A program made the translations under genes and the position numbers. Source: Bradyrhizobium erythrophlei (GTDB lineage: Bacteria; Pseudomonadota; Alphaproteobacteria; Rhizobiales; Xanthobacteraceae). From it: a stretch of 64,000 nucleotides of DNA. Under the pieces are notes generated by a model. That model saw nothing but the letters and a program-made list of their open reading frames with translations. It was not told the DNA's origin and made no database searches. The stretch's first letter is position 1; every line of letters starts with the position of its first letter. The stretch is from contig NZ_LT670818.1 of the NCBI RefSeq assembly GCF_900129505.1, forward strand, positions 372,001 to 436,000, given 5' to 3'. Of the stretch, positions 57,912 to 63,204 are shown piece after piece.

Positions 57912-58901
57912 TTGGCGATCAGCCGGACCAATGAGGTTGCCCAGGCGCTCTGGTATAGCGCGTGCGGGCAAGCCGAGATCCGCCAGGAAACGCTCGCGCC
58001 GCCTGGCGCCGACGAAGTGCGCGTGCGGGCGCTCCACGGCGCGCTCAGCCGCGGCACCGAAGCGCTGGTGTTCGCCGGGCGGGTGCCAGAGAGCGAATTC
58101 GAGCGTATGCGCGCGCCCTTCATGGCCGGCCATTTTCCGTTTCCGGTGAAATATGGCTATGCCACCGTCGGCCGGATCGAAGGTGGCACGGAGGGCTTGC
58201 GCGGACGCACGGTCTTCACGCTGCACCCGCACCAGGACCTGTTCAACATACCCGCGAGCGCCGCCATCCTGCTGCCGGAGAGCCTGCCGCCGCAACGCGC
58301 GGTGCTGGCCGCCAACATGGAGACCGCGCTCAATGCGGTCTGGGATGCGGCGCCGGGTCCGGCCGACCGCATCGCCATCGTCGGCGCCGGCGTGGTCGGA
58401 TCTCTGGTTGCGTATCTGTGCGGACGGCTTCCCGGCGCGGAGGTGACGCTTGTCGACGTCAACCCCGCACGCGCGGAATTGGCACGGGCCCTCGGGGTTA
58501 GCTTTGCGGGACCGGAAACGGCCAAGGGCGACTGCGACCTCGTCGTGCACGCCAGCGGCAACGGGAGCGGACTCGGCACGGCGCTGGCGCTCGCCGGTGA
58601 GGAGGCAATCGTGCTCGAAATGAGCTGGTACGGCGACGCGCCGGTGACAGCACCCCTCGGTGGCGCCTTCCACAGCCGCCGGTTGCGACTGGTGTCGAGC
58701 CAGGTCGGGCGAATCGCGCCGTCGCACCGGCCGCGCTGGACGCACGCCCGGCGGCTTGCCGCTGCGCTCGCGTTGCTCGCCGATGCCCGGCTTGACGCGC
58801 TGCTGGCGCCGGCGATTGCGTTTGTTGATCTGCCGCGGCGGCTGCCCGATATTCTCGACGCTGGAAGCGGCATACTCTGCCAGCCCATTACTTATTCCTG
58901 A
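57912..58901 (+). CDS. MDR-superfamily dehydrogenase without zinc ligands (BchC-like)
   Basis: 329 residues from a TTG with AGGGA nine bases upstream. The N-terminal GroES-like domain has [28 protein letters not shown] and [17 protein letters not shown], a pattern shared with the BchC-type zinc-independent branch. The GxGxxG Rossmann motif is [18 protein letters not shown]. The usual Cys/His-Glu zinc ligands (GCGxD, GHE) are missing, so zinc is not expected. It is the first gene of the tightly packed set with the PTPS-like, GT4 and methyltransferase genes. The substrate is unknown. Confidence 0.8.
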
Positions 58902-58911
58902 AGGAGGTCCC

Positions 58912-59313
58912 TTGTTCGCCGTTGAAGTTCGCGACCACATCATGATCGCCCATTCGTTCCGCGGCGCCGTGTTCGGCCCGGCGCAGGCGCTGCACGGCGC
59001 CACCTTCGTCGTCGACGCGGCCTTCATCGCCGAGACGCTCGACAGTAACGGCATCGTCATCGACATCGGCCGGGCGCATGACGCGCTGAAGGCCGTACTG
59101 GCGGCGCTGAACTATCGCAACCTCGACGACGTGCCCCAATTCAAGGGCAGCAACACCACCACCGAATTTCTCACCAAGCATATTTACGATGCGCTCGCCA
59201 GGGACGCCCGCGCCGGCGAGCTCGGCCGCATCGGACGCGAACTGAAGGCGATCCGCGTCACCATCTCGGAGTCGCATGTCGCGCGCGCCTGGTACGAGGC
59301 GGATTTGTGGTAG
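58912..59313 (+). CDS. 6-pyruvoyltetrahydropterin-synthase/QueD-like protein lacking catalytic residues
   Basis: 133 residues from a TTG with a perfect AAGGAGG five bases upstream. The PTPS fold is recognisable: IAHSF (H14, a zinc ligand) and ALHGA (H28), later [16 protein letters not shown] and [11 protein letters not shown] with the pterin-anchoring Glu (E120). But in place of the usual C-x-x-x-HGH there is no Cys, the second His is A30 (HGA), and the catalytic Asp-His pair (LDH) is N67-Y68. It is thus unlikely to be a canonical QueD or PTPS enzyme, but it could still bind a pterin. It overlaps the GT4 gene. Confidence 0.75.
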
Positions 59314-61162: not shown

Positions 61163-61968
61163 GCCGACAGGTCACAGTCGAACAGCACATCGTCGCCGAT
61201 CTGATGCACACGAAAGGGCATCCGCTGCGCCTGATCGGCGCGCTCGACCGGCGGCACGATCAGACCCGGGCCCCCTGCTCCGAGGACGATCGGCGCGACC
61301 ATCACGTGCAGGCGGTCGAGACAGCCTGCGGCGAGAAAGCGCGACACCGTGTTGGCGCCGCCTTCGATCAGCACACGGCGCATGCCGCAGCCGGCGAGCG
61401 CGGCGAGAATCGCCGATGGGGCGATTTGCCCATCGACCACAGGCAGAGCGACAATTTCCACGCCGGACGGCGGCGCGCAGCAGGTGCCCTGCGCCGTGAT
61501 CAGCAGGCGGCGGACACCGTTGTCGGCAAACATCCGGGCGGAGCCGCCAAGCCGGCCCTTCGGATCGACGACGACGCGCGCCGGCTGAGGCCCGGCGACG
61601 CGCCGCACCGTCAATTGCGGATCATCCGCAATGGCGGTGCCGACGCCGACAACGACGGCGTCCATCAGCGCCCGCAGCCGGTGCAGATGCACCAGTCCCC
61701 CCGGTCCGTTGATATATTTCGAATGTCCGGATTCCGTCGCGATCCGGCCGTCGAGCGACTGGCCGATCTGGCCGACGATCACGAGGTCATCCACTGTGCC
61801 CTTGCGCAGCGGACCGAACACATCCGCCCAGGCCCGCGGCAAAGGCTGGCGCCCTTCGCGGAATAGATCGCTGAAGTCTTCCCAGCGATCGGAAGACACG
61901 GATTTGCCCGATGGGAAATTGCTGGTGTGCACGCAAAAATCAAGAACACTGTGGGGTTGCGATAACAA
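61123..61968 (-). CDS. RibD C-terminal-domain (DHFR-like) reductase
   Basis: 281 residues. The first ~55 residues are not family-typical. The RibD_C/DHFR-like domain follows (VGQIGQSLDGRIATESGHSKYINGPGGLVHLHRLRALMDAVVVGVGTAIADDPQLTVR and further VLIEGGANTVSRFLAAGCLDRL), the NADPH-dependent reductase that acts on pyrimidine or related intermediates. The deaminase domain of true RibD is absent. It is transcribed towards the methyltransferase and away from the ribA-type gene, with only 48 bases between them. Confidence 0.85.
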   Translation of the reverse strand: MLSQPHSVLDFCVHTSNFPSGKSVSSDRWEDFSDLFREGRQPLPRAWADVFGPLRKGTVDDLVIVGQIGQSLDGRIATESGHSKYINGPGGLVHLHRLRALMDAVVVGVGTAIADDPQLTVRRVAGPQPARVVVDPKGRLGGSARMFADNGVRRLLITAQGTCCAPPSGVEIVALPVVDGQIAPSAILAALAGCGMRRVLIEGGANTVSRFLAAGCLDRLHVMVAPIVLGAGGPGLIVPPVERADQAQRMPFRVHQIGDDVLFDCDLSAQRVPLGVAKKST

Positions 61969-62016
61969 TGCGACTATCTGCCATCATCCCACAAAAATCG
62001 TCTATTTGCGACTGGA

Positions 62017-63204
62017 ATGATGCGGGGTGAACGGTGTTCCACGGTCACGACCCAGGAACAGAAAGTATGGGCAATGATTGAGATACCGACCGGCGCGCGC
62101 TCGGCCTTATTCGGTGGAAAAGGGCACACCAGCGTCAGCCGCGGCCTCGCCGAATTCCACGCGCGGCGGCCCGTTCTCGTTACCGCAACGGGCGAGGCGA
62201 TGCTCGCATTGCCGGTGGAGGGCCTCGACCGGCAGCGGCTTTCCGAATTCGCCGCGCTCTGCGCACCGATCATACCACGTCTCATTATCACGGAATGGCG
62301 TGCGCTGGCGCTCGGGCTGAAGGCGTCAACGCCGATGGCATTGGCGCTGTCGGCGGGCGACGACGCACACCGCATTCTCGCGCTCGTTGCCGACGCGAGC
62401 GCCGATCGCGTGCCGGCGGCAAGGCCGGCGAGCCGGGCGGCCATTGCTGCCGTTCAGCTCATCAAGATATCGCACGGTTTGCCGGCCGTGCTCGCGGCGG
62501 ATGTCGCCGGCCACGCCGCCGCGTGCGACGAGAACATCATCCGGGTTGAGGCGGATACCGTGGCCCGCTTCGCCGATGACGCCATTGGTTCGCTCATCGT
62601 GGCGAGCGAGGCCTCGGTGCCGCTCACCTCGGGCACCTCGACCCGCTTTGTCGTATTCCGCGACGCCATCGGCGGCAGCCCGGTCGCCATCATCGTCGGG
62701 AAGCCTGACTTCAGGGCCGCCGTTCCGGTGCGGCTGCATTCCGCCTGCCTGACCGGCGACGTGTTCGGTTCGCGGCGCTGCGACTGCGGCGATCAGCTTC
62801 GACTCGCGCTGGTGCGGCTCGAGGAACTCGGGGGTGGTGTCATTCTCTATCTGGCGCAGGAAGGCCGCGGGCTTGGGCTCGCCAACAAGATGCGGACATA
62901 CCGGTTGCAGGACCACGGCCTCGACACCATCGACGCCAACACAACGCTCGGCTTCGACGACGACGAGCGCGATTACGGCATCGCCGCACGGATGCTGGAG
63001 ATGCTGAACTGTACGCGGATCGTGTTGCTCACCAACAATCCGGCCAAGCTCGACGGCCTCGCCGGCGCCGGCATCGACATCGCCGGCCGGATGCCGCTGG
63101 AAGCGCCGATCAATGCCGACAACCGCCGCTATATGATCGCCAAGGCGGAGCGTTCCGGCCACCGCTTCGATCCCCTGGCGGCCTTGCTGGCCAACCCGTC
63201 CTAG
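62017..63204 (+). CDS. ribA: GTP cyclohydrolase II with extra N-terminal domain (RibA-type)
   Basis: 395 residues from the first ATG (another at 62074 gives 376). The C-terminal ~190 residues form a GCH II core with zinc cysteines C244, C255 and C257 in SACLTGDVFGSRRCDCGDQ, QEGRGLGLANKMRTYRLQD and LLTNNPAKLDGL. It should open GTP to a diaminopyrimidinone. The N-terminal ~200 residues lack RibB (DHBP synthase) motifs and are of unknown role. It is divergent from the RibD-type reductase and close to a pterin-synthase-like gene, so it may not serve ordinary riboflavin synthesis. Confidence 0.85.
   Translation: MMRGERCSTVTTQEQKVWAMIEIPTGARSALFGGKGHTSVSRGLAEFHARRPVLVTATGEAMLALPVEGLDRQRLSEFAALCAPIIPRLIITEWRALALGLKASTPMALALSAGDDAHRILALVADASADRVPAARPASRAAIAAVQLIKISHGLPAVLAADVAGHAAACDENIIRVEADTVARFADDAIGSLIVASEASVPLTSGTSTRFVVFRDAIGGSPVAIIVGKPDFRAAVPVRLHSACLTGDVFGSRRCDCGDQLRLALVRLEELGGGVILYLAQEGRGLGLANKMRTYRLQDHGLDTIDANTTLGFDDDERDYGIAARMLEMLNCTRIVLLTNNPAKLDGLAGAGIDIAGRMPLEAPINADNRRYMIAKAERSGHRFDPLAALLANPS

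Follow-up and report, generated by a model that had tools for sequence, protein, structure and literature searches.

Bacterial pterin glycosides such as biopterin glucoside, cyanopterin and the Chlorobium pteridine start from GTP cyclohydrolase I (GCH I, FolE) and a working PTPS enzyme. In the archaeal and fungal branch of riboflavin synthesis, 2,5-diamino-6-ribosylamino-4(3H)-pyrimidinone 5'-phosphate (DARPP) is reduced before deamination, and in toxoflavin-type pathways a deaminase-type RibD stands beside GTP cyclohydrolase II (GCH II) and a methyltransferase. A study of SCO6650 of Streptomyces coelicolor (Acta Cryst F 2008) reportedly described a structure only, with no zinc, no PTPS activity and a pterin-type pocket retained, and SCO6655, a GCH II homolog carrying Met, is said (Biochemistry 2006) to stop at the formamidopyrimidine FAPy. 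We know of no pathway proposed since 2006–2008 for the former, a structure without a function, or for the latter, a FAPy-forming enzyme of unknown purpose. Here we describe a gene cluster in a stretch of 64,000 nucleotides of Bradyrhizobium erythrophlei (contig NZ_LT670818.1, positions 372,001 to 436,000; hereafter the window), part of a 9.18-Mb genome in a single contig. The cluster encodes an SCO6650-type protein together with a GCH II, and we read it, at about even confidence, as a dedicated accessory cluster for a glycosylated, methylated pteridine-type (or ribityl-diaminopyrimidine) compound made from GTP. The start of this route is well argued from sequence; the product class and the later steps are proposed more tentatively.

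The cluster comprises the following genes, in window coordinates:

56011–57894, minus strand: MdoH/OpgH-like membrane GT2 glucosyltransferase, divergent from the operon, a cluster member by recurrence
57912–58901, plus strand: BchC-like MDR dehydrogenase; TTG start; zinc-ligand motifs absent, NAD(P)-binding GAGVVG present
58912–59313, plus strand: SCO6650-family PTPS-like T-fold protein; TTG start; PF01242, 4.2e-22
59307–60359, plus strand: GT4 glycosyltransferase with E-x7-E motif; PF00534, 1.4e-30
60356–61162, plus strand: class I S-adenosylmethionine (SAM) methyltransferase with an N-terminal WL..R signature; weak Methyltransf_25 match only, family outside Pfam
61123–61968, minus strand: RibD_C-only reductase, no deaminase domain; PF01872, 8.9e-38
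62017–63204, plus strand: GCH II; PF00925, 7.3e-53; N-terminal ~195 residues without a Pfam family

The MDR, PTPS-like, GT4 and methyltransferase genes are all plus-strand, and neighboring ones are separated or overlap by no more than 10 bases. The RibD_C gene is convergent with the methyltransferase gene, which it overlaps by 40 bases, stop to stop, and the GCH II start lies 48 bases from the RibD_C gene in divergent orientation. An earlier note on this DNA had named six genes, from the MDR dehydrogenase to GCH II, as a dedicated route from GTP to a glycosylated, methylated pterin- or flavin-like product. All six are confirmed, and no lumazine or riboflavin synthase is found among the annotated genes of the cluster, as the note had stated; its boundary fell one gene short, since the divergent MdoH-like gene also belongs.

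Scanning by pattern, with each species represented by one genome, yielded at least 590 confirmed places encoding the PTPS-like protein. The best 80 of these, 29 loci from a draw by class, 15 from a draw by phylum and the window itself form a neighborhood set of 125 loci (123 unique, two genomes being present twice as L086/L168 and L089/L170). Neighbors were called by tblastn at 1e-6, at which diverged copies will be missed, and several contigs are short; the counts exclude two over-long GT4 queries (L092 and L096, running into the methyltransferase) and one over-long RibD_C query. Near the PTPS-like gene, an MDR gene is found in 120 of the 125 loci, GT4 in 118, the methyltransferase in 111, RibD_C in 90 and GCH II in 50. 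The loci from the two draws alone (n = 44) give MDR 43, GT4 42, methyltransferase 40, RibD_C 36, CDP-alcohol transferase 17, GCH II 15 and MdoH-like 12. The MDR and PTPS-like genes are adjacent on the same strand in 118/125 loci, and the series MDR–PTPS–GT4–methyltransferase keeps this order and strand in 89/125, a regularity far beyond that expected by chance. RibD_C and GCH II genes within 1.2 kb of each other are divergent in 36 pairs and on the same strand in 2. In five loci of the set (L147, L157, L162, L163 and L172) and in L221, all from Paracoccus, Rhodobacter or Palleronia, the GCH II, MDR, PTPS, methyltransferase and RibD_C genes share one strand, and a nearby gene of the inositol-phosphatase family (seen in 7/125 loci) possibly supplies a phosphatase for the route. 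Sequence distances of RibD_C track those of PTPS with a rho of 0.51, which is the level at which the core genes track one another (0.43–0.52), values without a null model.

The distribution is patchy. An even draw of 240 Alphaproteobacteria gave 31 PTPS-like matches at E 1e-5 (30 at 44% identity or more, one at 29%), and 299 Pseudomonadota gave 84, of which 19 reach at least 49% and the remaining 65 do not exceed 38%. Eight of 98 Bradyrhizobium carry the gene at 79% or more; a further genome (G606) with a 42% match containing an internal stop was scored as a non-carrier. MDR–PTPS–GT4–methyltransferase is also found on plasmids of Methylosinus trichosporium OB3b (pOB3b1, with no GCH II within the stretch viewed), Agrobacterium tumefaciens (pAt), Peteryoungia, Ca. 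Thiodictyon and Streptomyces fungicidicus; a Palleronia plasmid record has MDR–PTPS–methyltransferase. One locus (L066) has the PTPS-like gene with a distant MDR gene only, and of five Streptomyces plasmids fetched, three have it without the cluster; close to these lone SCO6650-type genes (L212, L218 and L219) lie genes for cupin, MBL-fold and sigma factor proteins. A second arrangement occurs in Bradyrhizobium (L199 and L203, also L083 and L084), in which GT4 lies upstream of MDR and neither the methyltransferase nor the MdoH-like gene was found. The cluster is real, conserved, dedicated and accessory, kept in Proteobacteria and Actinomycetota, and its recurrence over two phyla bears out the dedicated gene set proposed from the window alone. 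A literature search found no description of it.

The closest solved structure to the PTPS-like protein is that of SCO6650 (PDB 3d7j; E 8.8e-44, residues 1–130), with which it has the family residues HS, FGPA, HGAT and ES in common in the alignment. HGAT stands at the place of the HGH zinc motif in 125/125 PTPS-like proteins and HGH in 0/125; for the 80 loci found by patterns including HGA or MIAHS the motif count is not independent, and HGAT is likewise present in 44/44 loci that came from whole-genome searches rather than patterns. The place of the catalytic Cys is taken by Ala in the alignment. A C-terminal-side Glu and the TTE stretch are retained, and we take these to have a role in ring binding. 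The QueD model gives 41 bits, its cut-off being 89. Judged by these motifs, the protein is a distinct SCO6650-type subfamily with the PTPS fold, as given by PF01242, and without the zinc motif. Because the HGH motif and the catalytic residues are lost, it is not to be read as a pterin-making PTPS; of the PTPS/QueD-like pterin enzyme of the earlier note, the fold family alone survives. This placement corrects the database label "6-carboxytetrahydropterin synthase", which stands on 13 of the 18 plasmid records carrying the gene.

In profile scans the RibD_C protein shows the RibD_C domain only, and an N-terminal deaminase domain was not found. Its best PDB match, 6p8c, is named 2,5-diamino-6-ribosylamino-4(3H)-pyrimidinone 5'-phosphate reductase. 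The window protein has the strict form of DDPxLTxR, the substrate motif of RibD_C/ArfC ribosylaminopyrimidine reductases; the strict form is present in 53/89 relatives and a relaxed form, set after the misses had been seen, in 85/89. Since the protein lacks a deaminase domain and its best structural match carries the name of a reductase of the 2-amino compound, we infer that it would reduce DARPP itself.

In the alignment, the window GCH II retains the three zinc cysteines (equivalents of Cys54/65/67) and equivalents of Tyr105, Asp126 and Arg128, in what we take to be the numbering of the GCH II sites. With Tyr at this switch position, DARPP would be the expected product. The four actinobacterial cluster GCH IIs have, at the Tyr105 place, Met (S. 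fungicidicus and S. globisporus), Gln (Saccharopolyspora) or Tyr (Micromonospora); a creatininase gene is present in all three non-Tyr clusters and absent from the Tyr-type Micromonospora cluster. Given the FAPy activity reported for SCO6655, a creatininase acting as formamidase would let both forms of GCH II reach DARPP. A creatininase-family enzyme with formamidase activity is reported in PMC9478397. The N-terminal domain of the window GCH II (window 62017–62600, ~195 residues) has no Pfam match and finds counterparts in 27 of the other 49 cluster GCH IIs; its reading as a degenerate RibB was dropped, as hhalign gave no support. In one locus (L115), an ORF of 178 residues matches this domain alone.

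The remaining enzymes of the operon are recognizable as families. The MDR protein matches NCBIfam bchC best (1.6e-12), at 47 bits and hence far below the BchC cut-off of 291; among 120 relatives, an SRGTE-type motif is present in 115, a CG[TS]D-type motif in 0 and GHE in 1. The GT4 E-x7-E motif is found in 103/118 relatives and the SAM motif of the methyltransferase in 98/100 relatives examined. In L092 and L096, GT4 and methyltransferase lie within one open frame of 633–645 residues, likely a fusion.

The membrane enzyme overlooked in the earlier note scores best with NF003963 (684 bits, cut-off 884) and passes the cut-offs of NF003958 and NF003962. In 63 of the 68 loci having it, the MdoH-like gene adjoins the MDR gene divergently, with a median gap of 201 nt. 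Within Bradyrhizobium, cluster-type MdoH (at least 69% identity) is found in 6/8 carriers and 0/90 others, and other MdoH copies are 33–36% identical to the window protein; three of the six cluster-type matches have in-frame stops within the matched stretch. Other lineages have a CDP-alcohol phosphatidyltransferase in its stead, likewise overlooked, sometimes with flippase-like and sulfatase-fold proteins. The CDP-alcohol signature is present in 29/31 proteins, and the gene takes the place of MdoH, adjoining MDR divergently, in 11/31 loci, lying elsewhere in the other 20. The two enzymes occur together in 0/125 loci. Full-length loci (18 kb or longer) number 91; MdoH occurs in 50 of them and the CDP-alcohol enzyme in 22, while none has both and 19 have neither (p 3.5e-10); the 89 unique ones give 48, 22, 0 and 19 (p 6e-10), both p values being uncorrected for kinship. 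This mutual exclusion and the shared place suggest that the two are alternative last steps at the membrane.

Taken together, a route may be proposed in which GCH II would open GTP to DARPP and the deaminase-free RibD_C would reduce DARPP to its ribitylamino counterpart without loss of the 2-amino group, two steps with support in the motifs described above. The PTPS-like T-fold protein may then bind the 2-amino-4-oxo-pyrimidine or pterin ring and close a ring or modify the side chain, the MDR enzyme may reduce or oxidize a side-chain carbonyl, GT4 would attach a sugar, the methyltransferase, sometimes with FkbM, would methylate, and the MdoH-like glucosyltransferase might extend or export the product. 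A wider idea, which we regard as doubtful, is that such clusters make a widespread and undescribed class of envelope-bound pteridine glycoconjugates, in which a zinc-free PTPS-like step, glycosylation, methylation and fixation by the MdoH-like or CDP-alcohol enzyme would give a pteridine-headed glycan or phospholipid.

Several observations weigh against the proposed route. No partner supplying the ring-closing carbon was identified, and the substrates of the PTPS-like, MDR, GT4 and methyltransferase enzymes are presumed. GCH II was not found near 75/125 clusters, and in sequence distance it tracks PTPS and RibD_C weakly (rho 0.27 and 0.24), the methyltransferase (0.47) and MdoH (0.48) better; of the ribA and ribD genes central to the earlier note, homologous clusters thus keep RibD_C well and GCH II less so. 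The RibD_C protein fits the general RibD C-terminal model of NCBIfam better than the archaeal reductase model, and no RibD_C was found within the 18 kb fetched from S. fungicidicus. In one single-contig Bradyrhizobium carrier (L204, genome G547), GCH II is reduced to two short remnants beside other cluster genes of full or nearly full length. A creatininase also stands near Tyr-type GCH IIs in six proteobacterial loci (L040, L068, L096, L099, L112 and L137), and the GCH II of L160 has Leu at the Tyr105 place without a creatininase, so the link between Tyr loss and creatininase is not strict. Shared ancestry, finally, inflates all counts and p values.

Whether the window GCH II serves riboflavin bears directly on the start of the route. 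The genome contains no other canonical GCH II, a circumstance that weakens a dedicated role and favors the alternative that GCH II and RibD_C belong to riboflavin synthesis, leaving MDR–PTPS–GT4–methyltransferase as the whole cluster. PF00925 has one further match in the genome (L002), a RibB protein whose GCH II half is degenerate and without the zinc cysteines, presumably akin to the RibBX type. GCH II matches of at least 130 bits occur in 8/98 Bradyrhizobium, namely in 6/8 cluster carriers and 2/90 others (Fisher p 7e-7), the others being judged by score only, and many of them having a further GCH II-like protein at 50–58 bits. As 88 of the 90 cluster-free congeners lack such a match, the genus does not depend on canonical GCH II. 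In six Bradyrhizobium carriers, the window included, GCH II adjoins RibD_C, and the contig of G551 stops short of GCH II. The canonical enzyme therefore travels with the cluster, and the window GCH II probably does not serve riboflavin synthesis. A full ribD (L071) beside an ORF that reads by eye as ribE, two ribH-family matches and the RibB protein sit elsewhere in the genome, where the earlier note had suggested looking for a separate rib operon. According to PMC9478397, Rhizobiales make DARPP through the creatininase-family formamidase BrbF, the cyclohydrolase (BrbG) being still unknown. The genome has one creatininase-family gene, 66–92% identical to copies in 19/19 congeners fetched (places chosen from the best matches), and the family is present in 97/98 Bradyrhizobium. 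A creatininase match from S. meliloti considered as BrbF lay on a pSymB record, not at chromosomal SMc02977, and was left unused. No Rfam match to an FMN riboswitch was found at window 50000–64000, at eight cluster loci or at the rib loci L071 and L208, so that this search had no positive control. Riboflavin synthesis independent of the window GCH II is the reasonable reading; a housekeeping role for it was dropped on the distribution in Bradyrhizobium and the creatininase-family gene. With RibD_C accompanying the cluster across phyla and GCH II surviving only as remnants in G547, we consider assignment of both genes to riboflavin improbable.

Other readings change the product rather than the ownership of these genes. 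The product might be a pterin glycoside derived from GCH I, with RibD_C acting as a dihydropteridine reductase and GCH II only a frequent lodger. The presence of GCH II near only 50/125 clusters and its weak co-inheritance with PTPS fit this view, as do the biopterin types among known bacterial pterin glycosides (PMC5683033; PMC13259868). Against it, enzymes acting on dihydroneopterin triphosphate have a zinc motif and a catalytic Cys that are both lost in the PTPS-like protein, the relaxed ribosylaminopyrimidine-reductase motif is kept in 85/89 RibD_C proteins, and FolE is not among the ten neighbor families scanned, a scan that did not cover all other neighbors; we judge it unlikely. The abundance of membrane and envelope neighbors (MdoH-like 68, FkbM 32, CDP-alcohol transferase 26, sulfatase 13 and flippase-like 13 per 125 loci) could instead mark mainly an envelope glycan or glycolipid locus in which the GTP-derived moiety would be a small cap or a regulatory ligand. 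The genes kept most constantly are MDR–PTPS–GT4–methyltransferase with RibD_C, not the glycan or lipid genes, and this locus type, too, seems rather improbable to us. A toxoflavin- or roseoflavin-like azapteridine or flavin antibiotic would account for GCH II, a RibD-type reductase and a methyltransferase side by side, the parallel that the earlier note had drawn. This parallel fails at the reductase, which has no deaminase domain, unlike that of the toxoflavin pathways; no deaminase domain occurs in the window set, where other toxoflavin genes were not searched for, and lumazine and riboflavin synthases are missing from it. Such an antibiotic is very improbable. The dedicated route from GTP to a glycosylated, methylated product thus stands in its RibD_C and frequent GCH II, has lost its ordinary PTPS and its toxoflavin parallel, and is tentative in its product class.

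Further genes lie beside the cluster in the window:

53924–55276, minus strand: multi-pass membrane protein, no Pfam match, part of the block in Bradyrhizobium
55260–56006, minus strand: FkbM-family methyltransferase, a recurring neighbor (32/125 loci); PF05050, 4.9e-17
63401–64000, plus strand: membrane protein after GCH II, extending past the window end; no Pfam match

The order of the first is kept in five of the seven other Bradyrhizobium cluster loci (one cut by a contig end), and the last is nearly full-length in four of the seven and partial in a fifth. Upstream, a plus-strand ORF of 751 residues (50988–53243), of unassigned family and probably secreted, adjoins a cytochrome c-like ORF (53427–53963). 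Elsewhere, cytochrome b561 is found in 41/125 cluster loci and YceI in 12/125.

Our analysis places SCO6650-type and SCO6655-type proteins in one cluster that spans two phyla and at least 590 places, and so supplies practicable hosts and an initial route that can be tested. If true, the proposed reading would mean a new cofactor-like or envelope metabolite in common soil, plant-associated and marine bacteria, and would show how a catalytic PTPS gave rise to an enzyme devoid of the zinc motif. By comparison with known systems, the idea of a glycosylated pterin is shared with the biopterin glucoside, cyanopterin and Chlorobium pteridine glycosyltransferase systems, whereas the window has GCH II and a PTPS-like protein without the zinc motif. 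The deaminase-free RibD_C, with a best structural match named as a reductase of the diamino compound, resembles the archaeal and fungal riboflavin branch, but its partners are the PTPS-like, MDR, GT4 and methyltransferase enzymes, not lumazine synthase. The BrbF route (PMC9478397) finds its likeness in the single creatininase-family gene of the genome (a family-level match) and in the creatininases near 12/125 clusters, and differs in that no creatininase stands beside the window cluster. SCO6655 and the window enzyme are both of the GCH II family, and the Streptomyces cluster relatives L213 and L220 have Met at the switch position, whereas the window enzyme has Tyr and an extra N-terminal domain. 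SCO6650 belongs to the same subfamily as the window protein, with a whole-length match, FGPA and HGAT; the window side differs in its proteobacterial cluster with an MdoH-like enzyme and a Tyr-type GCH II.

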